DNA of 64,000 bases, from contig JAHBTE010000001.1 of the NCBI GenBank assembly GCA_019638675.1, positions 2,636,605-2,700,604 of the forward strand, read 5' to 3'. The stretch comes from Fimbriimonadaceae bacterium (GTDB taxonomy: Bacteria; Armatimonadota; Fimbriimonadia; Fimbriimonadales; Fimbriimonadaceae). This document shows, piece after piece, positions 34,845-55,753 of this stretch. Both the position numbers and the translations under genes were made by a program. Positions within the stretch are counted from its first letter, which is position 1. The number at the start of each line of letters is the position of its first letter. A model generated the notes under the pieces. That model was not told the origin of the DNA, made no database searches, and saw only the letters and a program-made list of their open reading frames with translations.

Positions 34845-34864
34845 TAATGATGGTTCGCTAAGAA

Positions 34865-36568: not shown

Positions 36569-36598
36569 TTTTCTCCCAGGGCATTGCCCCAAATCGCA

Positions 36599-36617
36599 AT
36601 GCATACATCGTATGCAT
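36599..36617. repeat. Inverted repeat in the leader of the DUF4382-type gene
   Basis: ATGCATAC (36599-36606) and GTATGCAT (36610-36617) are perfect reverse complements with a three-base spacer. They lie in the 214-bp AT-rich gap between the serine hydrolase stop (36783) and the lipoprotein start (36568), next to TATAAA on the minus strand (36627-36622). An operator or a leader hairpin are both possible. Confidence 0.45.
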
Positions 36618-36782
36618 CACTTTTTATACAGCGATAGTGCTGAAAAAATTGCTAGGATCAAAAAAACCGCAAGAAACTGATTGTTAAGAAAATCTGCACA
36701 CTTTTGTATAGTTTTGAACTTATTTACTGAACAAATTGCAATAGCAACTGTTCAGCGATTGATCCTACTTCATGACTTATCT

Positions 36783-39487: not shown

Positions 39488-40626
39488 CTCAGGTTGCCTC
39501 CACCAGACTGTTCAATTAGCCGTTTGGCTCGCAGGTAAGTCGGCAAATCAGCCATGGAACCATCGACGCCAATTACTCCGCCACCGCTCACTTGAGCCGA
39601 ATTGTAAGTCTCTACTATTTGATTAGCCTTTTCTAGCTCTTGTGGCGTAGCACAAAAGCCTCGATGAACTGCGTCAATTTGGTTTGGGTGGATGCACCCG
39701 ATTCCCTCGTAACCTGCGTTTCGCGCTTGCCGGGCGTACTCTTCAACTTCATCCAGATTCTGAAATCCTGGGAAAACCGATGCTAGGGGCATGATTCCCG
39801 CCGCTCGGGCGGCATTTAATACCCTTGCCCGGGCAAAAGAGCTCTCTGATTGTTCAATGGTGCGGGTCGCCCCGATATCCGTAACGTAATCTTCCAAGCC
39901 TAGAGAAAGTGCAGTAATTCTTTCGGAGCAAGATGCGATTTCAAATGCATGCTCCACTCCTAAAGCCGATTCTATGAGCGGGATCAGCCTGACATGCGAG
40001 CCGCTATCGTCTAAAATCGCATCCACTCGCAGTACGTCATCGGCACACGTAATTTTGGGCAGAATAAACGTAGCAACCGATGACTGAGCCAAGGTCGCAA
40101 TATCAAAGTCTCCTTGAGGCCCGGAATTCACTCGAACCATGAGTTCGATCCCACTCCAATCCAGCATCTCACTGGCAAACGCCGCCATCGCCAAAGCCTC
40201 AACCTTTCGGTTAGCGTGAACAGATTCCTCTAAGTCCAAAATCACTGCATCGGGCCTGAATAGCGGCGCGTTCGGAATCAGCTTTGGAGTGTTGGCAGGA
40301 ACGTACAAACGAGATCGCCTCAGACCCGTTGGGAGATACCGTTTTTCCGAAACCATAGGCGGAATCGAAACGCCCGAAGCCAGACAAAATGCCGCGGTAA
40401 GCCGCGCGATCCAAGTCATCGGCAAGGCTCCGGAGTCTATGCATTTCAAGTGAACCTTCGGCTTACCAAACTGTTTGGCAATTGTTTCAATTTGATGCGT
40501 TATGGATTGATCGAAAAGGGGTGAGGTGCTACTAGAAAATTCAAAACTGAATTGGGCCGAGGGCGTTACGGTAATTTCGACATCAGACCGGACTTCACCG
40601 CCCGCATAGCCTACTGCAAAGCTCAC
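39484..40626 (-). CDS. citE: Citrate lyase acyl carrier (CitD) fused to beta subunit (CitE)
   Basis: 380 residues from GTG 40624-40626, which overlaps the GH127-like stop (GTGA) and follows AGGTGG. With this start, AGGEVRSDVEI places a Ser at residue 14, exactly the prosthetic-group Ser position of known CitD. Residues 1 to about 90 look like CitD, including KVHLKCIDSGALP. From about 102 the HpcH/HpaI-type CitE barrel follows: RSRLYVPANTPKLI, AVILDLEESV, MVRVNS, LIPLIESALGV and GLEDYVTDIG. CitE splits citryl-ACP to acetyl-ACP and oxaloacetate. Fusion of carrier and lyase in one chain is unusual. Confidence 0.8.
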   Translation of the reverse strand: MSFAVGYAGGEVRSDVEITVTPSAQFSFEFSSSTSPLFDQSITHQIETIAKQFGKPKVHLKCIDSGALPMTWIARLTAAFCLASGVSIPPMVSEKRYLPTGLRRSRLYVPANTPKLIPNAPLFRPDAVILDLEESVHANRKVEALAMAAFASEMLDWSGIELMVRVNSGPQGDFDIATLAQSSVATFILPKITCADDVLRVDAILDDSGSHVRLIPLIESALGVEHAFEIASCSERITALSLGLEDYVTDIGATRTIEQSESSFARARVLNAARAAGIMPLASVFPGFQNLDEVEEYARQARNAGYEGIGCIHPNQIDAVHRGFCATPQELEKANQIVETYNSAQVSGGGVIGVDGSMADLPTYLRAKRLIEQSGGGNLS

Positions 40627-42311
40627 TGCCAAGCCACCTGTAACCACGTTGTCCGCCAAGCTCCGTCATGCCGCCCCCCGCACTTCCAGTACGGCGTCAT
40701 CAGAATGGGATCGCGACCTGCTTGCCGCAACTCCGCCGACGATTCTCCAACAACTGAAAACACTGATTCTGGTGCTAACTGAGGCAGGCGGAGAGTTTCC
40801 TGAGTTCGATAGCCTGCAAATTTTCCGGTCGCCAAAACTTCTCTTCCTAGCTTGACGCTGACGTATTCTTCCCGAACGATTTCTTGCCCGTGGTGATCTA
40901 CCGAATGAACCTGCGTTATTACTTGGAACCGCTTGCTGATTCTAAACTTTACGGTTTCCGAAAGGGAGTCGAATAAAAGCCAGTCTCCATCTATGCGAAC
41001 ATCCGATGGTAAGTCAACGACCTTGAATCCCGGTGAGATAAAAATAGCTAGCGACGTAACCTTCCTTGAGGTTATCGTCACGTCCTCTCCGTCGACAGTT
41101 AGTTCTATTTCTGCACCGCTTGCCGTAGTGAATTCGCACGATGCTAAAAATAGTACGGCCGGATGATCATGCTTCTTTCCGACCAGGTTTGCCTCCGCGT
41201 AGGCGAGACCGATCGCTCCACTTGACTTACAACATGCCCAATGGTAAGTGTTATTTCGGCGTCCATTTGGGAACGTGAAATAGCACCAATCCGCGCCATT
41301 TTCATCAATCGCGCCGAGAACAGAATTGTATAAAGTCTTTTCTACTTCTTCCAAATAAGAAGATTCGCCAGTCACTTCGAACAAGCGGTGCGAAATGATC
41401 ATCCAGGTAACCGACGAGCACGTCTCCACCATTCCGCACGGATCAAAAAAGTCCGGCGGGTTAAAGACCTCTTTATGCGTTGCAATCCCTCCCCAGGGGC
41501 CACCCATCGGGGTCAAGTGGTAGTCGCGAACGTTTTCCCAAATACGCTTCACTAAGTTGATCAAATCGTTTCGATCTAAAAGTAACCCTAGTTCTAAAAC
41601 GCCTTTCAAGCACCACAGGAGTTGATAAGATTTCCCTGTTCCGATTTGCGATGCATCCTTGGCGTTCCAAAAATCTAACCCAGAATCAACCGCTTGGTTA
41701 AGTATTTTCATAGCTAGATCAGAATATCGATCGTCGTTCCACCTTTGTGCCATCAGGGCTAGAGGTTCCAAAACTACTAAGCTACTGAGCCCCTCGTGAT
41801 TACCCTGATCGGTTGGCCAGCGATGAGTTCCAAATTCAATTAGCAGTAACTCGCCAATCTTTTTTGCGGTGTCATCGGCTCGCTCACAACCAGGAATATC
41901 TGCGACTTCGAGCAATCCCAGAAGCATCCACGCGTGAACCCACACATCCCAAGTTCTTACTCCTTCTGCTTTCTGATTGGTAAACCGAGATTCGGCGGCT
42001 TCCGCGTACGTTCCCAAATAGCCAGAATCCTCTTGCTGATTGGCAAGGAAGTTAACTACTTTTGAAATCCGACCCGCCCATTCATCAGATTGGTTTGCTT
42101 GATAAGTGAGCCCCGCCGCCATGAGCCACTTTCCTGCGTGTTCGCCGTACCAATCGCCAGTTGTGCACTTATCCTTCTGGTCTGGATGGAACAACCTCAG
42201 CGGCTCAGATTCCTCATCTTGAATAAACTTTTTGAGTCGGGCATCTTCGCTTTTGCGAATCACTTCGCCTAGCTCGCCGCCTAGACGTACCTTTGATACA
42301 GTCTTGCTCAC
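40623..42311 (-). CDS. GH127-like glycosidase (beta-L-arabinofuranosidase/DUF1680 type)
   Basis: 562 residues from GTG 42309-42311, which overlaps the previous stop (GTGA) and has AAGGA ten bases upstream. An (alpha/alpha)6 barrel is expected. In GH127 a zinc site is built from Glu and Cys in an E-x-C motif plus a Cys-Cys pair that includes the nucleophile. Here Glu296 and Cys298 (VETCSS) and Cys360-Cys361 (HWACCKSSG) fit. No signal peptide, so it is probably cytoplasmic. Its sugar substrate may differ from L-arabinofuranose. Part of the tightly overlapping operon. Confidence 0.75.
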   Translation of the reverse strand: MSKTVSKVRLGGELGEVIRKSEDARLKKFIQDEESEPLRLFHPDQKDKCTTGDWYGEHAGKWLMAAGLTYQANQSDEWAGRISKVVNFLANQQEDSGYLGTYAEAAESRFTNQKAEGVRTWDVWVHAWMLLGLLEVADIPGCERADDTAKKIGELLLIEFGTHRWPTDQGNHEGLSSLVVLEPLALMAQRWNDDRYSDLAMKILNQAVDSGLDFWNAKDASQIGTGKSYQLLWCLKGVLELGLLLDRNDLINLVKRIWENVRDYHLTPMGGPWGGIATHKEVFNPPDFFDPCGMVETCSSVTWMIISHRLFEVTGESSYLEEVEKTLYNSVLGAIDENGADWCYFTFPNGRRNNTYHWACCKSSGAIGLAYAEANLVGKKHDHPAVLFLASCEFTTASGAEIELTVDGEDVTITSRKVTSLAIFISPGFKVVDLPSDVRIDGDWLLFDSLSETVKFRISKRFQVITQVHSVDHHGQEIVREEYVSVKLGREVLATGKFAGYRTQETLRLPQLAPESVFSVVGESSAELRQAGRDPILMTPYWKCGGRHDGAWRTTWLQVAWQ

Positions 42312-44422
42312 AGCGGCTCGATCCTTGGTGTGCCTGCCCCTAAGCAACCGGACGTAACCGCAAACGCAAACGCACCCGATTCGAGCGGATCGTCTTCATC
42401 GGATGCCTGCAAAATGAGTTCGCCATCAATGAAAAGTCGCAATTTATTGCCGACCACTTCCACTGAAACTTCGTAATCCTCAAATGGCTTCCATGGGAAA
42501 GAAACTCGAGCGAGCGAAGTTACGCCATCGAGTGCCTTTTCTAGTCGTACCTCGCCTGGTGCACCGAACAAAAATGCGTAATAGCGGCGGGTTCCTTGAT
42601 AACGCACGGCGATTCCACCGGATTCTGCCATTCGTGGAGTTACACGGCAACTCACGCGGTAATCCTTCCACTCTCGGTGGCCCTGCGCTAAGAATCCGGT
42701 TCCAGAATTCATTGCAAGGTACTCGTATCTATCGCGGATCGGAGCAAACCTATCCAGAGCGTTTGCCCAAGCGCGGTACCACATGGTTCCCTCAACCGGG
42801 GGCCAAGAAGTTGATGGAATGTTCTTCCAGTCCATTCGCTCAAGGAACAGCTCGCCTTCTTCCAACTCAATTCCAATGTGGTGAATCGGATAGCCTTGAG
42901 TATCTGGAATCACCCACTCAATAGTCTGGAGACTCTGGTCATCTACGGTGAACTCAGTGCCTTCAAACCGCTGAGTTTCGTCAGCGGCATCATAACATTC
43001 TATGAACAGGCGACCTTTAGCTTTTCCGATAGCTCTCAAGTCAACTTCCACCTGATGACCGCTGTAAAGGGTTGGACAAGCCACCAAAACGTAGCCCGTC
43101 ACCATGTCTTTTGTGTCAGGCGGAATAAATGTAGGAGTCGCAACTCTTAGCGGATTTAATGAATGTGCTTCTCGCCGTAACTTCAAGCCCGGTAAAGATT
43201 CATCATCGTTCCAAAAACCGTGCTCTACGGAACCACTTTCGGGGTTCTGAGCGCGGAACCCTTGTACCGAGCCAGCAAAACCAAAGTGGAACCGTGCGCC
43301 ATTCTTAGGTGAAACTCCAGGCTCTCCTTTAATCTTTAGGCCGGCATTGATGACTTCCACAGATTCTCGAACCGCATCGGTAATTGATCTGCCTGGATCA
43401 GCCGAAGGCAGATAAAGCCTGTCCGCCACTGGCCCGCGCCAATCTTGCTTGTTGAACGCCTCTAAACCGTTCCTGACACCCAAAATCGCGCCGACATTGC
43501 CTGAGTTGCAATCTGTATCCCAGCCGCTGGTGTTTACGATCATCATAGATTCATCGAAATCACCAGCGCCGTGGAGCAACGAAAGAATAATGAGGCCATG
43601 GTTAGGAATCAAGTGGCACTGACCCTTGTATTTATCGTATCCGTAGTGCGAATGTAGCAACGCCAATGAACGACGCCAGTCTTTGTCGTGGATATGCCAT
43701 TCGCGAATGTCGTCAATCAGCTTCCTTACTTCACAATCAGGAGGAATAACTGATACGCCAGTGTCTAAAAGTCGGTCGATATCTGATTCAACAAAAGCTT
43801 CGGCAACCATCGCCGCAACGACTTGCGCCCCGTAAATCGCTTCGCCATCATGGCTGACACTAGCGGCCTTCCGCGCAAATTCTGCGGCTAACCTAGGATC
43901 ACCAGGACAAATCAGTCCCCAACCATCGATAAAAATCTGGGCTCCAATTTGCTCGGAGATAATTTTTGAGTTCAGTGTCGCAGAGCCAGATTGAGGTGCT
44001 TGAATACCACTCTTCAGCCGCAGATACGCAGTATGTTCGGTTGAATTACCAAGCCCACCCCACCACAGAATCGTTTTTTCTTCGATTAAATAATTGAGCC
44101 ACGTCTGACCAATATCTTTTGGCTGGATGTTTTGGTCGTAACCGTAATCCTGCAAAGCGCGGAGGAAAATAAGGGTCCCAGAAATATCGTCATCGGTGAT
44201 GATCAGCCGACGATCTCGTTGTTCGTGAACATAGTATCGGATCTCTCCGAATTCTTGAACGATCTGCTCGTGACTCCAATTTTCTACTGGACGCCCTAAG
44301 TAGACACCGATGAGTTTGCCTAAAACGCCTGCATAAACCGTTTTGGCATACTGCGGATGAGTCGGGCTATTTATCCGCTCGCGTCTCTGTTGAGTTCTTT
44401 GTTGGCCGGAGTCAAATATCAT
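42308..44422 (-). CDS. ADP-ribosylglycohydrolase-family protein with lectin-like C-terminal domain
   Basis: 704 residues. Residues about 25-350 show the ADP-ribosylglycohydrolase fold: AGVLGKLIGVYLGRP, the metal-binding DDD at 77-79 followed by SGT, and GWDTDCNSGNVGAILG with Asp302 and Asp304, so both halves of the binuclear metal site are present. The C-terminal 200 residues form a jelly-roll of the LamG/DUF1080 kind (FLAQGHREWKDYRVSCRV, IAVRYQGTRRYYAFLF, LFIDGELIL). The family removes ADP-ribose from proteins or other acceptors, but carbohydrate-cluster members may act on other glycosides. The ATG overlaps the HlyD-like stop. Confidence 0.8.
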   Translation of the reverse strand: MIFDSGQQRTQQRRERINSPTHPQYAKTVYAGVLGKLIGVYLGRPVENWSHEQIVQEFGEIRYYVHEQRDRRLIITDDDISGTLIFLRALQDYGYDQNIQPKDIGQTWLNYLIEEKTILWWGGLGNSTEHTAYLRLKSGIQAPQSGSATLNSKIISEQIGAQIFIDGWGLICPGDPRLAAEFARKAASVSHDGEAIYGAQVVAAMVAEAFVESDIDRLLDTGVSVIPPDCEVRKLIDDIREWHIHDKDWRRSLALLHSHYGYDKYKGQCHLIPNHGLIILSLLHGAGDFDESMMIVNTSGWDTDCNSGNVGAILGVRNGLEAFNKQDWRGPVADRLYLPSADPGRSITDAVRESVEVINAGLKIKGEPGVSPKNGARFHFGFAGSVQGFRAQNPESGSVEHGFWNDDESLPGLKLRREAHSLNPLRVATPTFIPPDTKDMVTGYVLVACPTLYSGHQVEVDLRAIGKAKGRLFIECYDAADETQRFEGTEFTVDDQSLQTIEWVIPDTQGYPIHHIGIELEEGELFLERMDWKNIPSTSWPPVEGTMWYRAWANALDRFAPIRDRYEYLAMNSGTGFLAQGHREWKDYRVSCRVTPRMAESGGIAVRYQGTRRYYAFLFGAPGEVRLEKALDGVTSLARVSFPWKPFEDYEVSVEVVGNKLRLFIDGELILQASDEDDPLESGAFAFAVTSGCLGAGTPRIEPL

Positions 44423-45636
44423 GATCGTTTCAATAGTAGGGTGGCAATCGGACGATCACCGGTTTTGAGTTCAACTTTGACGGTAACCGTTTGACCTTCT
44501 TGGTCAGCATGCCGCACCGCGTTGATTAAATAGGCGGGGGGTGACTGAATTTTCAGTTTTGCCTCGAAGTTGCGGCTAATCGCTGTGCCAGGGATTTTTA
44601 GCGACTGCGATTTTCCGGTTCCTGGTGCCGCTGAGACTTGGAACACAGTGTTAAAATCGCGCACCTCAGCAATTTTTTTTGATTCTCCATTTAAGGTCTT
44701 GATCGTTTTTTGCTTGAGGGACTCTGCGAGTATTTGATTCACTGCCGACTGCACATCTGGAGCTAGCTTAGCGAACTGAATCGTGGCTGTGTGATCACCA
44801 GAAAGGACATCTGCTTTTAACACGATTGATGAGGCCGGATCGACTTGAACTCCATCTCCACCTGAGTTCGGCTGTAAGTTAAGTTCAGCGTCAATATCTA
44901 GCTTGGTGATCCCAGTTACTTCCAAAGCTATATCATCGCGAACTTCAAGTGGTGTGCCAACTAAGACCGAGGCTAGTTTATCGGTTGTCTCGCTAGTCAT
45001 CAATCTGCCGGAAACAACTGCGCCCTGATCAGTGCTTCCCCGCACTAAAACTCCACTAGCTGAACTCACACTGATCGATTTCACAGTAGCGACTCCGCCT
45101 GATTTAGCATTTGCTACGCCTTGTCCGGCTAACTTCGCCGTGAGGGTCAGCTGATTGTAATCACGAATTTGCGCGAGTTCAGTGCCAACTTCAATCCGCT
45201 TGCCCAGTTGTTCGGGATTGAATACGAATACTCCCGCCTGACTAGCACTGACGATAACGACGTCGGGTCGAACCAAACTAAATGGTTGATCGCTTTTTTC
45301 GACCGCTTCCCATGCGATGTACTGGTTTACGGCTGCCTCGCCTTCAACGATTTCAAACAAATCTTGCCCTTTGGTTACTTCATCAAAGTTTTCTGCTAAT
45401 GCCCGAACGATGAGCACAGGCTGTTCCATCTGAACCGGAGTAAAAGCGGCAACGACTTGGACTTTATCTGCGGTAATGACATCATCCACCCGGTAGTTGA
45501 AAGCGAATATAAATGCGCCAATAACGACGGCAACAACGAAGTATCCAATCCGTTCTAACCACTTCATGTAACGGGCATAGAACCGTTTTTTCCAAGGCGA
45601 TTGCGTTCGCCATTCTGGCGGGTATTTCGTTTTCAT
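44419..45636 (-). CDS. HlyD-like membrane fusion/adaptor protein
   Basis: 405 residues. A basic cytoplasmic N-terminus, one membrane helix at about 30-46, and a long beta-rich periplasmic part with lipoyl/barrel-sandwich-like features (VLIVRALAENFDEVTKGQDLFEIVEGEAAVNQYIA; VVIVSASQAGVFVFNPEQLGKRIEVGTELAQI). This is the layout of membrane fusion proteins that work with ABC exporters. It is directly downstream of two ABC half-transporters, with ATGA overlap, so it is probably their adaptor. Sequence identity to classical HlyD looks low. Confidence 0.7.
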   Translation of the reverse strand: MKTKYPPEWRTQSPWKKRFYARYMKWLERIGYFVVAVVIGAFIFAFNYRVDDVITADKVQVVAAFTPVQMEQPVLIVRALAENFDEVTKGQDLFEIVEGEAAVNQYIAWEAVEKSDQPFSLVRPDVVIVSASQAGVFVFNPEQLGKRIEVGTELAQIRDYNQLTLTAKLAGQGVANAKSGGVATVKSISVSSASGVLVRGSTDQGAVVSGRLMTSETTDKLASVLVGTPLEVRDDIALEVTGITKLDIDAELNLQPNSGGDGVQVDPASSIVLKADVLSGDHTATIQFAKLAPDVQSAVNQILAESLKQKTIKTLNGESKKIAEVRDFNTVFQVSAAPGTGKSQSLKIPGTAISRNFEAKLKIQSPPAYLINAVRHADQEGQTVTVKVELKTGDRPIATLLLKRS

Positions 45637-47447
45637 TGCGTTACCTCATTCATATAATCCACACCATCTACTGTTGAAAATGTGCGGTGCAACCTGTACA
45701 AATCAGCGTATAGGCCGCCGCTTGCCAGCAATTCGTTGTGGGTGCCTCGTTCAACTACGACCCCACGATCTAAGACTAAAATCTGATCTGCGTCCAGGAT
45801 GGTTTCCAGTCTGTGAGTGACCACAAAAGTTGTCCTATCCTGACCCACACGGCGCAGAATTTCAATTAATTGAGCTTCGGTTTCAACGTCAAGGGCGGAA
45901 GTTGGTTCATCCAAAAGTAGAATCTGTGGATTCGGCAAGATCGCCCGGGCGATTCCAATCCGTTGTTTTTGTCCAGCCGAGAGCCCGTTACCGCTTTCTA
46001 AGTCTTGATCAAGCTCGTTGTTGAGTGATTCAACCCACTCGCGCAACTCAACTGTTTCGAGAACTTGCAGGAGTTCTTCGTCCGTGGCATCGGGTTTTGT
46101 GATCCGTAAATTCTCCGCTACTGAGCCAGCGAAAACGAAGGTTTCTTGCATCACGGTTCCGACGTGACGCAAGTAACTTGTACGGTCAAGGTCGCGTAAA
46201 TCCTCACCTGAAACGACTATCCTCCCTTCGCTGGGGTCTTGGAATCTCAACATTAAGCCAAGGGCAGTTGATTTCCCCGCTCCACTCGGGCCAACAACGG
46301 CAGTCGTAGTTCCCGGCTTCATCTCAAAACTCACATCAGAAAGAACCTTGCCCACGTTTGGTCGTTCAAAACTGACGCCCTCAAAACTCACAGTTCCGAC
46401 GAGATTACTATCAACAATCTTTGCATCCGGTCGATCCTGGATGGCTGGTTCCGTTTGCAGAATGTGCATGAGCCGCTCGGCTGAGACCATGGTCTGCCAG
46501 ATCCAGCAACCAAAGTTCACGATTCGTTCGAGCGGATAAGTCACGCGAGAGAGATAAGCGATCAACGGCACAGTCATACCCAGCGTCATTTCTCCAAAAA
46601 TGACCTTACGGATGAGAAAGAGGTAGATCGTGATGGACTTAAGATAAGGCAACAGCTTTTGGGTGGTGAGTTCAAACCCAACTAAGATTAAGTAGCCTTG
46701 AATTGCCACACGTTGAACCGAGATATTGGCAATTCCGTTTCTAAAAATTTCAGACCGCACTCGGGAGAAAGCTTTGATCGTTGAGAAACTCGAAGAGGAC
46801 TGCAAAATCGCTGAATCCCGCATTTCAGTCATTCTCAAGCGGCGGCGATCAAATATCCGTCCGAAGTGCGTAACCCAGATAAACAGTATCGTCCAAGGAA
46901 TCAAGAATCCCATGACGATCATCGTTAGAACTGGCTCAATGTACGATGCGATGGAGAGGATGAGCGCGAATTCGACCAGCATGGCGGCGGTCGGCAAAAT
47001 ACGCACAAGCATATGAGCTATCCGATCTGCATCGGTGGTGATTCTGAATTGCTGTTGCCCGACCGGCACCGATTCAACGGTATCTATTGAAAGCTTTTGC
47101 AAATGCCCGTACATCGCTCTGCGGATGCCCAAACCGATAAGCATTTCCGCTGTGTTGTAGAGGTATGTTCGTAAGGCGGAAAGGCCGTAAACCATGCCAG
47201 CAAGCAACGCAATTCCAGCGGCAACTTGTAAAGTGAGATTCCAGTCACGCTGCGGAAAAGCTTCATCGATAATAAATTTTCCGAACCAGGGAATCGCCAA
47301 ATTAACGAGTGAAATAGATATATCTATAAGGCAAACTAGGATTAATCGCTTCACTTGAGGCTTCAGAAAACGCAATACAAAGCGAAACGCCTTCCAGGAA
47401 TTCTCACGGTGAGTTTCTGCTGATTGGACGGCATCTTGCTCAGTCAT
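45633..47447 (-). CDS. ABC exporter half-transporter (membrane plus ATPase), second subunit
   Basis: 604 residues. Six membrane helices in about 1-330, then the nucleotide-binding domain with Walker A GPSGAGKST, signature LSAGQKQR (Ala in place of the usual Gly), Walker B LLLDEPTSALD and switch VTHRL. It overlaps the first half-transporter by eight bases and the HlyD-like gene by four. The pair is expected to form a heterodimeric type IV exporter. The catalytic Glu is present, so this site may still hydrolyse ATP. Confidence 0.88.
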   Translation of the reverse strand: MTEQDAVQSAETHRENSWKAFRFVLRFLKPQVKRLILVCLIDISISLVNLAIPWFGKFIIDEAFPQRDWNLTLQVAAGIALLAGMVYGLSALRTYLYNTAEMLIGLGIRRAMYGHLQKLSIDTVESVPVGQQQFRITTDADRIAHMLVRILPTAAMLVEFALILSIASYIEPVLTMIVMGFLIPWTILFIWVTHFGRIFDRRRLRMTEMRDSAILQSSSSFSTIKAFSRVRSEIFRNGIANISVQRVAIQGYLILVGFELTTQKLLPYLKSITIYLFLIRKVIFGEMTLGMTVPLIAYLSRVTYPLERIVNFGCWIWQTMVSAERLMHILQTEPAIQDRPDAKIVDSNLVGTVSFEGVSFERPNVGKVLSDVSFEMKPGTTTAVVGPSGAGKSTALGLMLRFQDPSEGRIVVSGEDLRDLDRTSYLRHVGTVMQETFVFAGSVAENLRITKPDATDEELLQVLETVELREWVESLNNELDQDLESGNGLSAGQKQRIGIARAILPNPQILLLDEPTSALDVETEAQLIEILRRVGQDRTTFVVTHRLETILDADQILVLDRGVVVERGTHNELLASGGLYADLYRLHRTFSTVDGVDYMNEVTQ

Positions 47448-49371
47448 GAGTTCCTCCTTTCACCTTAGAAATTTCCCATTGTTGCTCCCACAAATCTTTA
47501 TAGAGTCCGTCCTGGGCAAGCAGTTCTTTATGGGTGCCTTGTTGCACGATTCGGCCTTGATCTAGCACGATGATTCGATCGCATTGCGTGACGGCTTTCA
47601 AACGGTGGGCAATGGTAATCACCGTTCTGCCCTTTCGTACTTCTTGAATTGTCTGCAACACTTTGTCTTCGGTCGCCGGGTCAAGACTTGCGGTTGCTTC
47701 GTCCAAAAATAGAATTCTTGGGTTTCGGATCAGGGCGCGTGCGATTCCAATGCGTTGACGTTCTCCGCCTGAGATTGGAGCCGTTTCCGAAATGACTGTG
47801 TCTGCTCCATCACTGTGGTGCGCCAAGAAAGCACTTGCTCCAGATTGTTCTAAAGCTGTTTCTAAGTCTTCTAAAGTGGCATCGGGGTTGCCAAAAAGAA
47901 CGTTTTCCGCAATCGTGCCCGCATACAAATAGGTTGACTGAGGTACGGATGCGACATTCAACAAGTAACTGTTTAAGTTGACATCCATCAAGTCATGATC
48001 ATCAACGAGAACTGAGCCACTATCTGGTTCGTATAGCCGCAGGGCAAGGCTGACAAGAGAGCTTTTTCCCGCTCCACTCGGGCCAACAATTCCCAAATAC
48101 TCTCCTGGTTCTACATCTAAGGACAGTTCGTGAATCACTGGTTCGCCGGGCCGATAGCCAAAGGTCAAATCTTTGAACTTCAAGGATCCTTTGAAATCAG
48201 TCAATACCGTAGCGCTAGGTTTATCAAGCAAGCGAGGTTTCGTGTTCAGTGTCGAGAAGATTCTGCGAACGGGCACGAGTTGCATCTTTAGCAGTTGAGT
48301 TAACTGCACAAAGTTCTGCAATGGCATTTGAGCGGCTTCGATTAGCAAGGCGGTTGCCACCCAGTCTCCAATGGTCGCCTCGCCAATAATGATTTTTCTG
48401 GCCAAATAGATATAGACAATGGTGGTGAATATCCACCGCATTAACTGCTGAAGGATGTTTTGCGCTTTGACGAGTTCGCCATACATGCGAACGCCGTTCC
48501 GACGAGCCTGCCCCGCCGCAAGGAAATACTTTCTGAGTTGGAGAGTCGTTCGGCCAAATGCCTTCATCGTGCGCAGACCAGCGATGCTATCGCGCAACAC
48601 TTTTGATTCGTTTTCGACGCCATCTTTAAAATCAAAAGCCGCTTCCCTGACTCGGTTGAAAGCGAAATATGAAATGACCGAAAATGGCACGATATAACAA
48701 ATCAAAAAGAATGAGAGCATCGGATCGATCAGATAGAGGAGCGCCGCTCCCCAACCCATTGCGTAAAGCGTTTCGACAAAAAGAGGCATTGACCTCGTGA
48801 TGATCCCCATCACACCAGGATCGTAAGGGTCAACGTCGTTTGAATAGTAATAAGAGGTCTGAACTTCCTTGCTCTCTGGTGGCATTTGACCAGCCGGCGT
48901 CGAAGTTTCGACCCTGTTTCCCACTCGGAAGAGCGAGACCATATCCGCCGTTGCCCGGTAAAGATGTGCTCCCGGCCCATATTGACCGAGAAAACTCATC
49001 GGAAGTGAGTGCAGATGTCGATAATATTTCAGTCGCAAATCCAGGGTGGAGCGCATTGACACATACCATTCCAAGACTTCTCGCCAAGTTGAAAGAAGAG
49101 TGCTTGCAAGCCAGAAGATAGCCTGCAAAATCATAATGCGAATGACTGCATCCCAACGTTCTGTAATTGTCAGACTTGCAGAATTGAGAGCTTGATTTGT
49201 TACATCTCTCGTAAGAAAAATTGCAAACTGCCCAAGCGGGACTGCGAGGAGTAAAAAACATATCCCTAAGAAAAATTTGCCTTTGTATGGTCGAACTACT
49301 GCCCAAAGCTGGCGAAAGATTTTGGCCACATCGCCTGATTTTAGTGCTGGGTGAGTAGGTGATTCGCTCAT
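47440..49371 (-). CDS. ABC exporter half-transporter, first subunit, with long loop insertion
   Basis: 643 residues. Membrane domain about 1-360, ATPase domain with Walker A GPSGAGKSS, signature ISGGERQR, Walker B LFLDEATASLD and switch IAHRL. About 35 extra residues (roughly 151-185: Ser/Thr/Pro/Glu then YYYSNDVDPYDP) interrupt the region between helices 2 and 3, absent from ordinary half-transporters. It is the first gene of the 12.6 kb operon. There is no ribosome-binding site before the ATG; instead a strong hairpin ends 11 bases upstream. Confidence 0.88.
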   Translation of the reverse strand: MSESPTHPALKSGDVAKIFRQLWAVVRPYKGKFFLGICFLLLAVPLGQFAIFLTRDVTNQALNSASLTITERWDAVIRIMILQAIFWLASTLLSTWREVLEWYVSMRSTLDLRLKYYRHLHSLPMSFLGQYGPGAHLYRATADMVSLFRVGNRVETSTPAGQMPPESKEVQTSYYYSNDVDPYDPGVMGIITRSMPLFVETLYAMGWGAALLYLIDPMLSFFLICYIVPFSVISYFAFNRVREAAFDFKDGVENESKVLRDSIAGLRTMKAFGRTTLQLRKYFLAAGQARRNGVRMYGELVKAQNILQQLMRWIFTTIVYIYLARKIIIGEATIGDWVATALLIEAAQMPLQNFVQLTQLLKMQLVPVRRIFSTLNTKPRLLDKPSATVLTDFKGSLKFKDLTFGYRPGEPVIHELSLDVEPGEYLGIVGPSGAGKSSLVSLALRLYEPDSGSVLVDDHDLMDVNLNSYLLNVASVPQSTYLYAGTIAENVLFGNPDATLEDLETALEQSGASAFLAHHSDGADTVISETAPISGGERQRIGIARALIRNPRILFLDEATASLDPATEDKVLQTIQEVRKGRTVITIAHRLKAVTQCDRIIVLDQGRIVQQGTHKELLAQDGLYKDLWEQQWEISKVKGGTHD

Positions 49372-49382
49372 GGTGGAAAAGA

Positions 49383-49404
49383 ATCCCGCGCTTTCGCGCG
49401 GGAT
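49383..49404 (-). terminator. Strong hairpin (attenuator or terminator) just before the ABC operon
   Basis: On the minus strand ATCCCGCGC-GAAA-GCGCGGGAT forms a 9-bp GC-rich stem with a GNRA tetraloop, followed by TCTTTT. It ends the LacI-pseudopilin unit, yet the ABC ATG (49371) is only 11 bases beyond the stem, leaving no room for a promoter after it. Confidence 0.8.
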
Positions 49405-49431
49405 CTAACCTCATCGAAGAAGGCAATATCG

Positions 49432-49635
49432 TTAGTCGGGGTCGGTGGTTCGTTCTTTGTAGCCCGGTTGACCTCGTTTAATAGGCTCCGGATCTTCAAG
49501 ACTCTTTGGATCAAGGGTCTTCAAATCAACTTTTTCAGTTGATGGGCTCCCACTCATCACAAAGAAGGCAATGACTCCACCAACTAGTAGAACCAGTACG
49601 GCAGCAATGACACCAGGGTGAATTTCTTTTTTCAT
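49432..49635 (-). CDS. Small membrane-anchored protein, Asp/Pro/Glu/Lys-rich tail
   Basis: 67 residues. A single helix (about 9-27: VIAAVLVLLVGGVIAFFVM) is followed by a 40-residue polar tail rich in Asp, Pro, Lys, Glu and Thr. It starts nine bases after the pseudopilin stops. It resembles in size and composition the small lipoproteins beside the other two pseudopilins, but it is anchored by a helix and has no lipobox. Function unknown. Confidence 0.6.
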   Translation of the reverse strand: MKKEIHPGVIAAVLVLLVGGVIAFFVMSGSPSTEKVDLKTLDPKSLEDPEPIKRGQPGYKERTTDPD

Positions 49636-49644
49636 GCTCTAACC

Positions 49645-50436
49645 TTAGTTAGTGCCGTCCCACCATGTGCCCCAGTATTTGTGGTTGACATTGTTTTTGA
49701 ATTGAGGATCGTTGTATCCAGCACAATCTTCAGCTTCGGCTACAGTTGCGCTCAATTTCATAACGCTTGTACCAGGAACACTCTTTGCATGGGAATCACC
49801 AAACGAAGTGATGATCCGATCTTTGTGGAACTTTGCCCCAAGATAAGCTCTCTGCAATCGCGTGTTAGCAACTGTGTTTGGACTTACAGTTACCGGGCAC
49901 GCCGCTTCATCGGACGTAAAGTCATAGCCAAGGCTAGGAGCATCAGTTCGAGAAGTGACGATGTAAGCAGCTCGATCTGCAATGTCTTCTTGTGCCGAAG
50001 CAATACGATAAGATCGAATAAATGTGTCTAGCGTTTCCCAACTTGACCAACCATTACGGTTCAGCGAAATGGAAGTTGCTTGACTCCACAAGTAATCATT
50101 ACTACTCGTGTTTGTAGCAACTCCGCGAGCAGCATCCCAAACCAATTGGCGATTCTTCATGTAAGGCTCTAGGTAGTAGTAGTAACCAGCATTGTTAATT
50201 GCTGGCGTTGCCGAAGCATTTGAGAATCGGTGTGGGTGAACAACATCATCGTAGTCAGCAAGATAAATTTGTCCAGCCGTACCTACTTGCTTGATGTTGG
50301 AAAGGGTCGCAGTGGTTTTTGCAGCAGCTTTAGCTTGAGCAAAAACAGGGAAAAGGATTGCGGCCAAAATCGCGATGATCGCAATTACAACCAGCAGTTC
50401 AATTAATGTAAATCCTGAAGATTTGAGGGTTTTCAT
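49645..50436 (-). CDS. Type II/IV pseudopilin-like protein (third copy)
   Basis: 263 residues from ATG 50434-50436 (MKTLKSSG then FTLIELLVV), with the classical Gly before the cleavage site. A longer start at 50469 overlaps the LacI stop (ATGA) and would give a 19-residue leader, also acceptable. The hydrophobic helix is the same as in the copies at 2321 and 3634, and SFGDSHAK near residue 225 matches their D-[GS]-H-A-K motif. It is cotranscribed with the LacI-family regulator, so its expression is probably ligand-controlled. Confidence 0.85.
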
Positions 50437-50465
50437 AAGCGCTTCTTTGCGGGGTGTGGGCGAAC

Positions 50466-51488
50466 TCATGAAGTTGCACCCGGACAGAACTCGACGGGCA
50501 AAACAGTGAGATCAGGAATCTCTTTTTCACCATCAAGTTGATCGACGAGAAGTTGTACAGCTTGCTGAGCAACCTTTGCCCAGTTCGCTCGTACGGTTGT
50601 TAAAACTTTTGCTGGCTCAAACGGCAATTCAATTCCGTTAAAGCCCACGACTGCCAAATCATCTGGCACAGAAATATCGCGCGATTTACAATAACTTAAT
50701 AGAGCGTGAGCACTTGGATCACCCCAACAGACTGCGGCAGTGACACCGTTAGTTTTTCGATTTTCTATCAGATCTATTTCAGATTTGTCCAACCCGCCTT
50801 TCCAGTCTGAGGTTTGAACGCTGATCGTTTGAATTCCGTGCTTAGTCGCTTCTTCGATAAAAGCACGTTCGCGGCGACTTGCCGAATCTGATTCGCCGGG
50901 ACATGACCTGTACATCACTGTTTTATGCCCGAGTTGCGCAAGGTGTTTAGCGATTTCGACGGAACCAGCCGCATCATCCGCAATCACGCTTGGCACACCG
51001 GGAATGATGTCCGTCATGGCGACAAAAGAAAGCTGAGAGCCACGGAGCCTTTCGACTAACGGATCGTGAGGCGAAGCGATAAGGACAAGGCCGTCGATTT
51101 TGCCGCCTGCTAGCTCTGCAAAAATTTCATCCATACCATAGCGGTGGAAGGAGTAATGGATCATCAAATCCTTCTCACATTTTTCGCAGCCTCGTTGAAG
51201 ACCGGTCAAAACTTCAGCGTGGAAAGGGTCGTGTGGTTCTAAGTGGCCATAACCAAAGTACAAGCCGAGGATGTTGGTTGTGCGGTTACGTAAAGCCCGA
51301 GCCAAGGCATTGGGTAAATAACCCATTTCGCGGGCTGCATCAAGGATTCTTTCGCGTGTTGCTTCCGAAACTCGAGTGTTCGACTTAGATCCATTGAGAA
51401 CAACAGAAACCGTGAAAGGACTAACATTTACCGCTTGCGCGATGTCCTTCAAAGTTACTTTTTTGTTCTGCGGAGTGATAACACCCAT
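50466..51488 (-). CDS. LacI-family transcriptional regulator
   Basis: 340 residues from ATG 51486-51488. The longer frame starting at 51524 would lie inside an operator, so the shorter start is preferred. [26 protein letters not shown] (about 11-33), hinge [15 protein letters not shown], then the periplasmic-binding-protein-like sensor domain to the end ([24 protein letters not shown]). It should bind the inverted repeats at 51506-51545 and 51631-51648 and so control itself, the pseudopilin and ribokinase. The likely inducer is a sugar or nucleoside-derived ligand. The C-terminus overlaps the ORF of the pseudopilin. Confidence 0.9.
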
Positions 51489-51505
51489 GTTTTCTTCGGT
51501 TGCCC

Positions 51506-51523
51506 TGACCAAATGTTTGGTCA
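51506..51523. promoter_or_regulatory. LacI-type operator O1
   Basis: TGACCAAATGTTTGGTCA: perfect 8-bp arms around TG. It lies between the lacI promoter and ATG 51488. Its centre is 22 bp from that of O2, about two helical turns, so two dimers could bind the same face. Confidence 0.85.
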
Positions 51524-51527
51524 TGCC

Positions 51528-51545
51528 TGACCATACGTTTGGTCA
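51528..51545. promoter_or_regulatory. LacI-type operator O2
   Basis: TGACCATACGTTTGGTCA, one arm mismatch relative to O1. It lies five bases downstream of the lacI -10 and would cover the transcription start, fitting autorepression. Confidence 0.85.
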
Positions 51546-51549
51546 TCGG

Positions 51550-51578
51550 ATTGTAACACTGACGGTATCCAAATGCAA
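51550..51578 (-). promoter_or_regulatory. Promoter of the lacI-pseudopilin unit
   Basis: Minus strand: TTGCAT (51578-51573), 17-bp spacer, TACAAT (51555-51550). This is a good sigma-70-type match, with operator O2 immediately downstream. Confidence 0.7.
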
Positions 51579-51628
51579 TAAATTCATTGTTTATCTGGTA
51601 TTTTTACTAGGTTAATAGCTAATATCGG

Positions 51629-51650
51629 CATGACCAAACATTTGGTCATG
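51629..51650. promoter_or_regulatory. LacI-type operator O3 in front of ribokinase
   Basis: TGACCAAACATTTGGTCA at 51631-51648, extended to 10-bp arms CATGACCAAA / TTTGGTCATG (51629-51650). It lies 13 bp before the ribokinase ATG and just after a possible -10 (TAATAT, 51620-51625). The distance to O2 (about 103 bp) would allow looping. Confidence 0.85.
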
Positions 51651-51663
51651 TACTCTCAGAGCG

Positions 51664-52557
51664 ATGTCAAGGGTTTTGGTTGTTGGGTCGGTAAATGCCG
51701 ATCTCGTCTACTCAGTTAAAGAATTCCCTCAGCCGGGCCAAACAATCTCTTCCCTAGATTTCAAGATATTTGCGGGCGGTAAAGGGGCTAACCAAGCCGT
51801 TGCCTGCGCGCGAGCCGGGGCAAACGTTGAATTCTGTGCATGTTTAGGAGAAGATAATTTTGGTGAGTTTCTTTCGCAGGCAATTACTAGTAACAACGTC
51901 GGAATGGGCTCAGCCACAAAGTCCACAGAACCAACCGGATCGGCCGTTATTTTTGTGAACCAAAGCGGAGAAAATCAAATTGTCCTCAATCCCGGTGCAA
52001 ATCATTCACTGTCGGCAGAGTCGGTCAATCATGCCGTTTCAACCGTTCAGCCCGTGTTCGTCCTGACTCAACTTGAAATATCTGATGAGGCAGTAATGGC
52101 CGTGCTGTCTCGGAAAGAAAGAGTGATTCTTAATCCGGCGCCCTATCGCGAGATTAGTCGATACGATCTCAGCGGGCTTTTTGCGATTACACCAAATGAA
52201 TCGGAGTGCGCTTCCCTCACTGGAATTACACCTGCGAGTGAACAAACAACGAAAGAAGCGGCAAACGTTTTATTAGGAATGGGTATTCAAAACGCAGTGA
52301 TTACACTTGGTAGCCGCGGATGTTATTGGACAAATGGTCAAGAGGATTGCTTCATCTCTCCCCCACCCGTAAAACCTGTCGACACAACGGGAGCTGGTGA
52401 CGTTTTCAATGGAGTATTAGTCGCTCGGTTGCAGGCTAACGATGATTTTCCGAATGCTCTTTCTTATGCAGTCAAGGCGGCTTCAATTAGTACAACGCGT
52501 CACGGTGCTTTAGAATCTGCGCCATTTATGTCTGAGATTGATTCACTTCTGCCTTGA
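51664..52557 (+). CDS. rbsK: Ribokinase (PfkB family)
   Basis: 297 residues. The N-terminal MSRVLVVGSVNADLVYSV and GGKGANQAVACARAG are ribokinase signatures; the anion-hole motif DTTGAGDVFNG starts at about residue 240 with the catalytic Asp246. Ribokinase makes ribose-5-phosphate from ribose, although related pentose or deoxyribose kinases share these motifs. It is divergent from the LacI-family regulator, with operator O3 over its promoter, so it belongs to that regulon. No ribose transporter is in the window. Confidence 0.9.
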   Translation: MSRVLVVGSVNADLVYSVKEFPQPGQTISSLDFKIFAGGKGANQAVACARAGANVEFCACLGEDNFGEFLSQAITSNNVGMGSATKSTEPTGSAVIFVNQSGENQIVLNPGANHSLSAESVNHAVSTVQPVFVLTQLEISDEAVMAVLSRKERVILNPAPYREISRYDLSGLFAITPNESECASLTGITPASEQTTKEAANVLLGMGIQNAVITLGSRGCYWTNGQEDCFISPPPVKPVDTTGAGDVFNGVLVARLQANDDFPNALSYAVKAASISTTRHGALESAPFMSEIDSLLP

Positions 52558-52623
52558 AATATTCTGATTTGATTTCGGCAGGCTAAGAATATGAATAATA
52601 GTCACAAACCTAATCAGAAATTC

Positions 52624-52698
52624 TGGAGCCCGATAACAGATTTGAACTGATGACCTACCGCTTACAAGGCGGTTGCTCTACCACTGAGCTAATCGGGC
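52624..52698 (-). tRNA. tRNA-Thr, anticodon UGU
   Basis: The acceptor GCCCGAT (52698-52692) pairs with ATCGGGC (52634-52628); D-arm GCTC..GAGC; anticodon stem ACCGC/GCGGT with loop CTTGTAA, anticodon TGT; T-arm has the usual TTCAAAT. CCA is encoded at 52626-52624. It reads ACA codons. Confidence 0.95.
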
Positions 52699-52709
52699 CT
52701 GAGGCGAAA

Positions 52710-52755
52710 AGTTACCCGACTGAGAACAGTTCGCACTGTGACCAGCCGGGTAACT
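52710..52755 (-). terminator. Possible terminator of the small basic protein gene
   Basis: AGTTACCCG (52710-52718) and CGGGTAACT (52747-52755) are reverse complements, enclosing a further foldable 28 bases. AAAA just before gives TTTT on the minus strand, in the right place after the stop at 52770. Confidence 0.55.
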
Positions 52756-52769
52756 ATTTTGTGAGTTGA

Positions 52770-53177
52770 TTACGCCTTCTTTGTGCGTTTGCGGGTTTTT
52801 GCCAATCGAGGTTGACCATCTGGGCCAATGACAAGTTTGTGCCCTGCAGGAATCTTTGCCAAAGCGGCTTTTAATTCATCAGGAACTTCAGCACTGGTCT
52901 TGTTAGCACCGCGTTTGCGTCGGCGAGATTTTTTGAATTCGTTGACTGCAGCTTCTGCTTCGTTAACGTCGGTTACAACAACCAGTCCATCTTTAGTGAC
53001 CTTCATGACCTCGGCAGCGGGAGGAACATGAACGAAAACATAATTATCGCTTTGAAGTAATCGAACTTCATAAGGAAGAGTGTGCTTTTTAACACCTAAT
53101 TTTAGGCTCAGGGCACCTTCTCTTGAGGCGGTCTTGAGCTTAAGACCTGCTTTGATTTTGTTCATTGATTTTGCCAT
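52770..53177 (-). CDS. Small basic protein of unknown function
   Basis: 135 residues, strongly basic at both ends (KKSRRRKRGANK; KTRKRTKKA). The middle is beta/alpha (LPYEVRLLQSDNYVFVHVPPAAEVMKVTKDGLVVVTD). The C-terminal PAGHKLVIGPDGQPRLAKTRKR suggests nucleic-acid contact. No family recognised. A role in nucleoid or ribosome binding is guesswork. It has an AT-rich upstream region and its own putative terminator, so it is a single-gene unit. Confidence 0.6.
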   Translation of the reverse strand: MAKSMNKIKAGLKLKTASREGALSLKLGVKKHTLPYEVRLLQSDNYVFVHVPPAAEVMKVTKDGLVVVTDVNEAEAAVNEFKKSRRRKRGANKTSAEVPDELKAALAKIPAGHKLVIGPDGQPRLAKTRKRTKKA

Positions 53178-53253
53178 TCTATTCTCTCTCGCACAAATTC
53201 ATTTACGTGCAATATGATAATTATATCACAACAATTTAATTTTCTTTTGGCCC

Positions 53254-54141
53254 TTAGTTAGCTAATGGATTTGGCAGTGGAACGTTGTCAATTAGGCGAA
53301 CACCGCAGAACTGAGCGGCAACAATAATTCTATAAGGATTCGACTCTTTTTCCGTTTGACCCAACTTTTGACTCAATATTTGACCAACTTTTTGGTCAGT
53401 CACTGGTTGCATGGTCAACGAATTTACTAATTCCAAATATTGCACTTCAAATTCAAGGTTTGCGAGTTCATTTATTGCGCTCTCGATGGCAGATTTCCTA
53501 TTCTCAAAATCTTCAGCAATCTCTTTTGCGCAGACAACAATAACTCTGTTTAAGTTTGATGCTCTCTCAAATTCGTCGGGAGAAAAATAATTATTCCGGC
53601 TACTCATGGCAAGGCCAGATGGCTCCCGGACTGTCTCGCAAAATTTAAGTTCGACTGGAATGCAGAGATCATCTACCATTTGGCGAATGACTGCGCACTG
53701 CTGTAAATCTTTTAATCCGAAATAAGCTACGTTGGGCTGTACTATTCCGAAAAGTTGAGCGACGATAGTTGCTACACCGGTAAAGTGTCCTGGCCTTTTT
53801 TCACCTTCAAATAAATCTGAAACTCCGGAAACAGTTACCGAAGTAGTATTGCGACCAAGCATTTCTTCTACGCTTGGGCAAAACGCCACCTTTACCCCTA
53901 CTGAGCTTGCCATTTCTAAATCTTCTGCTTCTTGGCGGGGGTATTTGCTCAAATCTTCGTTGGGGCCGAATTGGAGGGGGTTTACAAAAATACTAATTGC
54001 AGAAGTATCGTTTTCTTTTGCTGATTGCTCCATCAGGCTCAGGTGACCTTGATGGAGAGCCCCCATGGTTGGAACAAACCCTAATTTGCCAAAGCTTTCT
54101 CGGTGATTCCTAAATTCTGCAATTGTCCGAATAACCTTCAA
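53254..54141 (-). CDS. panC: Pantothenate synthetase PanC
   Basis: 295 residues. VPTMGALHQGHLSLM carries the HIGH-like motif (HQGH); IFVNPLQFGPNEDLSKYPR, RPGHFTGVATIV, FGLKDLQQ and SSRNNYFSP complete the family pattern (the usual FGEKD has Leu for Glu). It condenses pantoate with beta-alanine at ATP cost, for CoA. It overlaps panB (ATGA). A LacI-like inverted repeat lies inside its coding sequence near the 3' end (53381-53398). Confidence 0.93.
   Translation of the reverse strand: MKVIRTIAEFRNHRESFGKLGFVPTMGALHQGHLSLMEQSAKENDTSAISIFVNPLQFGPNEDLSKYPRQEAEDLEMASSVGVKVAFCPSVEEMLGRNTTSVTVSGVSDLFEGEKRPGHFTGVATIVAQLFGIVQPNVAYFGLKDLQQCAVIRQMVDDLCIPVELKFCETVREPSGLAMSSRNNYFSPDEFERASNLNRVIVVCAKEIAEDFENRKSAIESAINELANLEFEVQYLELVNSLTMQPVTDQKVGQILSQKLGQTEKESNPYRIIVAAQFCGVRLIDNVPLPNPLAN
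53381..53398. repeat. Operator-like inverted repeat inside panC
   Basis: TGACCAACTTTTTGGTCA matches the LacI operators at 51506-51648 in 15 of the 16 arm bases. It lies 1.73 kb from O3 within the panC coding region. It may be a remote auxiliary operator or chance. Confidence 0.35.
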
Positions 54142-54917
54142 AAACTATTTTCCTCCGACGGAAATGTGCGGTTTCGTACGGATTCTGAATAGTTCTTCAA
54201 AGCATTTGTGAACAGTTCTCTTCCATCCACAAATGAAGTTGCATGTTTGAACTTATGCGAACTCAATCCCAGAACATCGTGCCACACCTGAATCTCTCCG
54301 TCGCATTCAATGCCAGCCCCAATTCCGATTGTGATTGCATCAATCGCGCCCGTTATTCGCTTTGAAAGCTCCGCCGGGATCAGTTCTAAAACGATTCCAA
54401 AAGTTCCGGCATCGCTGAGCCGTTTCGCCATGGCCAGCACTTCATCGCCGTTATCACGGCCTTGAACCTTGAATCCACCAAACCCATTTACACTCTGCGG
54501 AGTAAAGCCAACGTGCCCCATCGTGGGAATTCCCGCCTTGACTAATGCGGCAACGGCTTCTGGATAATTCCCTTCCAGCTTGACTCCCTCGGCTCCAGCT
54601 TTCATCAATACGACGGCGCTATCAACCGCTTGGGCAACACTTGATTGATAACTTCCGAATGGGAGGTCAGCAATAAGCAACGCATTCTGCAATCCGTTCC
54701 GAACTGCGCGAACGTGGTGCTCTACTTCTGCCAACGTCACCTGAACCGTGGTTTGCTGTCCAAGAATTACGTTCCCGAGCGAGTCGCCAACTAATACGAG
54801 GTCAACTTCGGCAAGGTCAGCAATCTGGGCGGACATCACATCGTATGCGGTCAAACAGACCACGCGGGATTGTCCCTTTTGCGCGAGAAGACCGGGGGCA
54901 GATCGCTTTTTACCCAT
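54138..54917 (-). CDS. panB: Ketopantoate hydroxymethyltransferase PanB
   Basis: 259 residues. VCLTAYDVMSAQIADLAEVDLVLVGDSLGNVILG, the metal-binding Asp in LIADLPFGSYQ, VKLEG, MGHVGFTPQSVNGFGGFKVQGR and TIGIGAGIECDGEIQVWHDVLGL are diagnostic. It makes ketopantoate from 2-oxoisovalerate in the first step of pantothenate synthesis. Its order with panC and the four-base overlap indicate an operon, with an unknown membrane protein 20 bp upstream. Confidence 0.95.
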   Translation of the reverse strand: MGKKRSAPGLLAQKGQSRVVCLTAYDVMSAQIADLAEVDLVLVGDSLGNVILGQQTTVQVTLAEVEHHVRAVRNGLQNALLIADLPFGSYQSSVAQAVDSAVVLMKAGAEGVKLEGNYPEAVAALVKAGIPTMGHVGFTPQSVNGFGGFKVQGRDNGDEVLAMAKRLSDAGTFGIVLELIPAELSKRITGAIDAITIGIGAGIECDGEIQVWHDVLGLSSHKFKHATSFVDGRELFTNALKNYSESVRNRTFPSEENSF

Positions 54918-54937
54918 GGAAAATCGATATTACCGGT

Positions 54938-55753
54938 TCAAAACCCACCGAACTGGTTCATTAAGCCGCCGCCAAAATCAGAATTGATGCTGAACCACTT
55001 GCGGGTCTTGTATTTATCACAAATATCCTGCACCTGACCGTCGGTTTGCTTCGCCAAAGTATCGATCCGAGCACTGCTTGTGCCTTGCATCTTGGTCAGT
55101 GCAGCGACTGCGGCTTCGGGATTATCTTTCGACATTTCAATCGCATCCAGAACTTCCATCATCATCCCGCTGGTTTCACCCAAAGCCTGAGCGTAGCTTG
55201 CTTGGATAGGAATACATTCCGAAGGTGGCGGATAGCTGAGGAAGAAATCTTGCAGAGCCTGCCAATCTTTCCGTTTTTGGGCTGCGTCAGTCTGAACACT
55301 CTCCGACTTACTTTCAGGGATATCTACTGGAGCGTTTTCGCGGTCATCACCAAAGATGCCGTACAGCGCATCCATAATTCCGCCGCCCGAACGGAGTTTG
55401 GTCAACATAACGAGCAGGTCTCCCATTTGATCGCCAGACAAAGACTTGCGCTTTTCTTCCGTAATTCGCAAATGCTCTAGCCAGTTATAGATGTCATCCG
55501 GCATGGCAACATCTTTCGGTTTTTCAATGGGCAAAGCCGGAGCCACTGGCTGACCAGCTTGAGGCAACGCAGTTGGTGTATTCAGCGGAGTCTGAGAGGT
55601 TACGTTCTGCCCCTTCGGGCCAAACAATCCAAGAGCCACTAAGCCACCGCCGATCAGCAATAGCGCAACTAAAACTCCGATGCCGATTCCAAGGGCGAGA
55701 GTGTTGCGCCGTGTTTCTAAGGCGTAAGGATCAATTGGTGCCTGTGGCTTCAT
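54938..55753 (-). CDS. Hypothetical single-pass membrane protein
   Basis: 271 residues. A cytoplasmic N-terminus of about 19 residues, one membrane helix (about 20-44: LGIGIGVLVALLLIGGGLVALG), a Pro/Ala/Gln-rich linker and a helical outer domain (about 85-260). The C-terminus is glycine-rich (FGGGLMNQFGGF). No family recognised. It is 20 bp upstream of panB and so may be cotranscribed, without an obvious functional link. Confidence 0.6.
   Translation of the reverse strand: MKPQAPIDPYALETRRNTLALGIGIGVLVALLLIGGGLVALGLFGPKGQNVTSQTPLNTPTALPQAGQPVAPALPIEKPKDVAMPDDIYNWLEHLRITEEKRKSLSGDQMGDLLVMLTKLRSGGGIMDALYGIFGDDRENAPVDIPESKSESVQTDAAQKRKDWQALQDFFLSYPPPSECIPIQASYAQALGETSGMMMEVLDAIEMSKDNPEAAVAALTKMQGTSSARIDTLAKQTDGQVQDICDKYKTRKWFSINSDFGGGLMNQFGGF

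Follow-up and report, generated by a model that had tools for sequence, protein, structure and literature searches.

LacI-family regulator with predicted operators at the head of a conserved gene block in Fimbriimonadaceae

Gene organization around lacI and rbsK

The window (the whole 64,000-nucleotide stretch of DNA analyzed here) carries a gene for a LacI-family repressor on the minus strand (lacI, 50466–51491) and, transcribed divergently on the plus strand, rbsK (51664–52557), which encodes a ribokinase-like PfkB kinase scoring 292.5 bits against TIGR02152, just below the cut-off of 299.65. Membership of the repressor in the LacI family was evident from its matches to PF00356 (58 bits) and PF13377 (91.9 bits), both over the cut-off. 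Its start codon is most likely the ATG near 51489; an alternative longer frame begins at an ATG overlapping operator O1 (described below), and this extension is not common to the congeners. The lacI gene overlaps by 4 bp the gene for a pseudopilin with a prepilin-type N-terminus (49645–50469, minus strand), bearing out the LacI–pseudopilin unit proposed in a preliminary description of this DNA. Such pairing is not a general rule in the genome: among its three LacI genes and the genes for 43 prepilin-type proteins, no others lie side by side. A literature search for LacI together with pilins in Armatimonadetes or Fimbriimonas found no paper.

The preliminary description had grouped LacI, the pseudopilin, and the ribokinase as one unit. 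These genes do belong together, but the unit was drawn too narrowly, as it is only the head of a conserved block of about 12 genes; wherever contigs allow, LacI orthologs head this same gene order in other genomes. Behind lacI and the pseudopilin gene, the block continues on the minus strand with an unannotated 67-aa protein that has one hydrophobic stretch and ends in GQPGYKERTTDPD (49432–49635), two ABC exporter-type half transporters (45633–49371; 47440–49371 and 45633–47447), an HlyD-like membrane protein (44419–45636; weak Pfam match, below the cut-off), an ADP-ribosylglycohydrolase-family protein with an extra C-terminal region (42308–44422; PF03747, 5e-57), a GH127-type (beta-L-arabinofuranosidase-like) protein (40623–42347; PF07944, 4e-34), a citrate lyase–like pair (37937–40659) consisting of a CitD–CitE fusion (39484–40659) and CitF (37937–39487), and finally a beta-lactamase-family (serine hydrolase) protein (36783–37940); rbsK also belongs to the block. 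The 67-aa protein, whose gene is present in a single copy in the genome and which had no accepted Pfam match, is a conserved part of the block, located between the pilin and ABC genes, with the C-terminal motif GQPGY(K/R)ERTTDP.

From the first ABC gene onward, each gene of the block overlaps the next by 4 to 40 bp, which, together with the lacI–pilin overlap, indicates coupling. The 273-bp gap between the pilin and ABC genes contains the gene for the 67-aa protein and, directly before the first ABC gene, a strong G+C-rich hairpin followed by TTTT (approximately 49379–49405, minus strand; z −2.5). A similar hairpin precedes the first ABC gene in three relatives (G078, G079, and G084). This hairpin is possibly an attenuator or partial terminator and, given that it shares the gap with the gene for the 67-aa protein, lacI, the pilin gene, and the small-protein gene may form a separately dosed unit. 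Scans for consensus promoters and terminators reported nothing at the lacI locus or in the pilin–ABC gap.

Predicted operators and their co-occurrence with LacI

Three predicted operators share the 18-bp palindrome TGACCAAA-NN-TTTGGTCA. O1 (51506–51523; TGACCAAATGTTTGGTCA) is a perfect 8-2-8 palindrome within the lacI 5′ leader; O2 (51528–51545; TGACCATACGTTTGGTCA) has one arm mismatch and a central CG; and O3 (51629–51650; core 51631–51648) is a perfect 10-2-10 palindrome. With lacI starting near 51489, both O1 and O2 fall in its promoter/leader region. The core of O3 begins 33 bp before the rbsK ATG (51664), and its arms stop 13 bp before that codon. Accordingly, the three 18-bp repeats with shared arms reported earlier are all present, although the left arm of O2 is off by one base; the 22-bp centre spacing of O1 and O2 was correct; and O3 has the 10-bp arms ascribed to it but does not overlap the ribokinase start codon. 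The lengths of these sites (18 bp, extending to 22 bp at O3) agree with the even palindromes with conserved inverted repeats of 16–22 bp that characterize LacI-family operators. In contrast, the central CG pair usual in such operators was found at only 3 of 27 sites, the others having CA/TG (18) or CC/GG (6). A RegPrecise survey of 1303 LacI-family motifs (Ravcheev et al. 2014, PMC4052901) lists, among 1251 even palindromes, 49 with a different and 29 with a degenerate central pair; because of these documented exceptions, a central CG is not a defining feature.

The motif is rare. In the whole 2.85 Mb genome, four copies with at most one mismatch were found, all inside 1.9 kb at the lacI locus, compared with 0.07 expected per genome (first-order Markov estimate) and 0.0017 per window; allowing three mismatches, the window contained four copies versus 0.34 expected from shuffles. 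Four genome-wide copies at one locus against an expectation of 0.07 mean that the motif is no common repeat, the outcome that the preliminary description had named as speaking against its reading. One of the four copies, absent from the preliminary description, lies inside panC (53381–53398).

The sites are also conserved beyond their surroundings. In the congeners G078 and G079, 51 of 54 positions in the three sites are identical (94%) versus 62–67 of 120 (52–56%) in the rest of the intergenic region; in G045 and G044, the values are 44–45 of 54 (81–83%) versus 41–43 of 120 (34–36%). O2 is identical in G078 and G079, O1 is kept in both with one arm change, and O3 occupies the same position (−33 to −35) in G078, G044, and G045. 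The spacings of 22 and 103 bp are the same in the genome under study (G000), G078, and G079, and are 23 and 102 bp in G045 and 23 and 90 bp in G044.

Orthologs of this LacI (59–89% identity; next best ≤41%) were found in 15 other genomes of the family's 85, that is, 16 including its own, and none were added when the search was extended to the order (113 genomes). Of the 16 genomes with an ortholog, 12 contain the motif with one mismatch or none, as against 5 of the 69 without (Fisher p = 6.6e-8, in a test that ignores shared ancestry), and the 16 ortholog genomes contain 34 sites where about 0.6 are expected. The ortholog genomes without the motif make sense as exceptions: in G084 the contig ends inside lacI; G007 has weaker paired sites with 2–4 mismatches at the same 22-bp spacing; and in G067 and G069 (g29), where sites are degenerate only, the recognition helix reads SSATxSSILNG in place of SPFTxSVVLNG. 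The genome encodes two other LacI-family proteins, so that the sites might in principle belong to another DNA-binding protein, with the adjacent LacI being a bystander. However, the presence of the motif tracks the LacI ortholog over the 85 genomes, nearly all orthologs have a site before lacI, and the sister genome G081, which lacks both LacI and the block, has no copy of the motif. These observations make a bystander role for LacI highly improbable.

Predicted repression and its reach

Upstream of O2 on the minus strand is a candidate lacI promoter, TTGCAT-17-TACAAT (51550–51578; TTGCAT at 51573–51578 and TACAAT at 51550–51555), with 4 bp separating TACAAT from O2. Its hexamers agree with the consensus at 3 of 6 and 5 of 6 positions (8 of 12 in all), and a standard consensus promoter scan did not report it. 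Nevertheless, TTGCAA-17-TACAAT is present in G078 and G079, likewise 4 bp from O2, and a −10-like sequence precedes the lacI-nearest site in most relatives. Hence the minus-strand promoter noted previously next to O2 is present and conserved in two congeners, while calling it “well-formed” was generous. A second palindrome, CTGGTA-TTTT-TACTAG (51595–51610), lies between O2 and O3 and is kept in all five genomes with the divergent lacI–rbsK layout (including G078, G079, G044, and G045). As a genome-wide regulatory motif it was rejected, since it has 6 copies versus 9 for a reversed-pattern control.

Very probably, LacI acts through the TGACCAAA-NN-TTTGGTCA sites as a repressor of the lacI–pseudopilin transcript and of rbsK, and is released by a sugar-type inducer. 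By analogy with the LacI family, a LacI dimer would bind each site and repress rather than activate. The lacI transcription start is predicted to fall within O2, which begins 4 bp past the −10 element, and O1 lies two helical turns further, so that the two sites would act as a tandem pair shutting off the lacI–pseudopilin transcript. O3, in the rbsK leader, would block rbsK transcription, and an inducer would lift repression at all sites. The genes from ABC to beta-lactamase have no operator of their own in this genome; repression at O1 and O2 would probably reach them by read-through, as family precedent suggests. Such an operator switch is of the textbook kind and, as a mechanism, ordinary.

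Each feature of this scheme is usual for the LacI family when set against the RegPrecise survey, in which autoregulation applies to 72% of regulators, the distances between sites have peaks at 13, 22, and 32 bp, the 22-bp peak is read as cooperative binding, even palindromes dominate, and three-site groups precede 116 operons (PMC4052901). The locus resembles the local sugar regulons described there in its even 18-bp palindrome, autoregulation, 22-bp tandem sites, divergent sugar kinase, and promoter-near sites, and differs from them in its central pair, which is mostly CA/TG rather than CG. The main text of the survey does not mention Armatimonadota (PMC4052901).

Comparison with relatives extends the predicted regulon. 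In five relatives (G072, G039, G042, G041, and G037), lacI is separated from rbsK by more than 10 kb or lies on another contig, and in all five a perfect site lies 116–163 bp upstream of the separated rbsK. Autorepression and co-control of ribokinase, both anticipated in the preliminary description, are well supported: the former by the predicted operators at lacI's own promoter, the latter by the predicted O3 in the rbsK leader and by the perfect site that usually precedes a separated rbsK. The sites upstream of separated rbsK genes are nearer to, and better placed for, a divergent gene (encoding a dockerin-like domain in G072), for which reason this gene may be the main target there. In G005, rbsK lies behind the ADP-ribosylglycohydrolase-family gene and has the same orientation; the GH127, Cit, and beta-lactamase part is missing at the block position, and a GH127-type gene on another contig is preceded by a perfect site of its own, 43 bp ahead of the aligned start. 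In six genomes, a gene encoding a protein of about 250–300 aa is preceded by a further site, located about 1 kb upstream of lacI; PEP-CTERM ends were recognized in these proteins in two of the six. Thus, the motif links genes that lie apart in different genomes (lacI, rbsK, GH127, and genes for secreted-looking proteins), and thereby marks out the members of a conserved block, present in some genomes and absent from others, in a phylum that has received little study.

As a separate observation, operators in related genera were seen beside genes for secreted-looking proteins with dockerin-like or PEP-CTERM features (L069 535–1806, L074 10406–11221, and L070 7110–7868).

The preliminary description had also predicted that O1 or O2 and O3 couple lacI and rbsK through a DNA loop on which repression depends. 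Helical phase would allow this, as O1 and O3 are 125 bp (11.9 turns) and O2 and O3 103 bp (9.8 turns) apart, and the spacing is kept in G078 and G079, is close in G045, and is shorter by 12–13 bp, about one turn, in G044. However, the alignment with E. coli LacI ends at residue 323 of 360, with only six residues of the query remaining, indicating that this LacI lacks the C-terminal tetramerization region of lac-type looping repressors, and lac-type looping is therefore not expected. Moreover, the two genes are far apart in the five genomes named above, and rbsK lies downstream in the same direction in G005. Looping was thus not borne out and seems unlikely; repression by LacI dimers at individual or tandem sites is the preferred reading.

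The E. coli lac system has several operators (O1–O3), one at the transcription start and one inside the coding gene lacZ. The present locus is similar in having several operators, one of them at the predicted transcription start, and a possible copy in a coding gene, although the LacI here, unlike that of E. coli, has no tetramerization tail. The possible coding copy is the one in panC, which has one mismatch and lies 1750 bp from O3. Could it be a functional auxiliary operator besides O1–O3, like the site in lacZ? A match of this quality would arise by chance within about 4 kb with a probability of about 1e-4, and the PanC stretch concerned is gapped in most congeners and hence free to vary. 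On the other hand, the other genomes of the genus showed no such copy, G081, without the block, has three differing codons there, and coding regions hold less than 1% of the LacI-family sites catalogued (PMC4052901). An operator function of the panC copy is consequently rather unlikely.

The present-or-absent block and its possible substrate

The whole block and rbsK make up a 15.9-kb unit (36716–52623) whose right end abuts tRNA-Thr(TGT) (52624–52698). In the sister genome G081, all of 36716–52623 is missing at a tRNA-Thr–flanked site (L089), where the counterparts of window positions 34863–36715 and 52624–54942 are adjacent with about 100 bp between them; the proteins of G081 flanking the block are mostly 90–99% identical. 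The block occupies another place in G078 and G079, tens of kb from panC. The difference reflects either a gain in G000 or a loss in G081. No integrase was recognized among the genes of the block, base composition did not mark it as foreign, and Rfam models matched the tRNA only.

The LacI protein offers some hints about the inducer. Two stretches that we take, from family knowledge, to line the sugar pocket, WGDPSA and GFNG, are invariant in all 16 orthologs, and the second reads GFDN in CcpA and another solved LacI-family protein; this difference hints at an uncommon ligand. The neighboring enzymes suggest a compound containing ribose or another furanose, from which, judging by what is known of the family, the inducer probably derives. 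The protein is like RbsR in its best NCBIfam match (NF047341, 130.7 bits) and in having a ribokinase-like target; however, this score is far below the cut-off of 382, and that for NF007743 (83.2) below 531. No ribose importer was recognized in the block, which has the ribokinase-like gene scoring just under the TIGR02152 cut-off.

CitG normally makes the precursor of the citrate lyase cofactor, and no CitG homolog was found in this 98%-complete genome. The acyl-carrier part of the CitF/CitD–CitE pair would then be charged by some other route, unless the pair serves a different function. No loose end of the analysis is more interesting than this one, which belongs to the block rather than to the operators. 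As a tentative proposal, the operators may control an undescribed, mobile, tRNA-adjacent catabolic and transport block, in which the ADP-ribosylglycohydrolase-family enzyme, the GH127-type glycosidase, the ribokinase, and the citrate lyase–like pair operating without CitG would act on an unusual furanose compound and have their own pseudopilin, small membrane protein, and ABC/HlyD transporter. Finding which compound releases LacI would offer a route to the substrate of the block. A literature search for LacI with ADP-ribosylglycohydrolase and citrate lyase found no paper. By itself, the ADP-ribosylglycohydrolase-family protein occurs widely, in Chloroflexi and other groups; among the 80 best loci, the complete block was seen only in records labelled Armatimonadetes or Fimbriimonadaceae and in one MAG.
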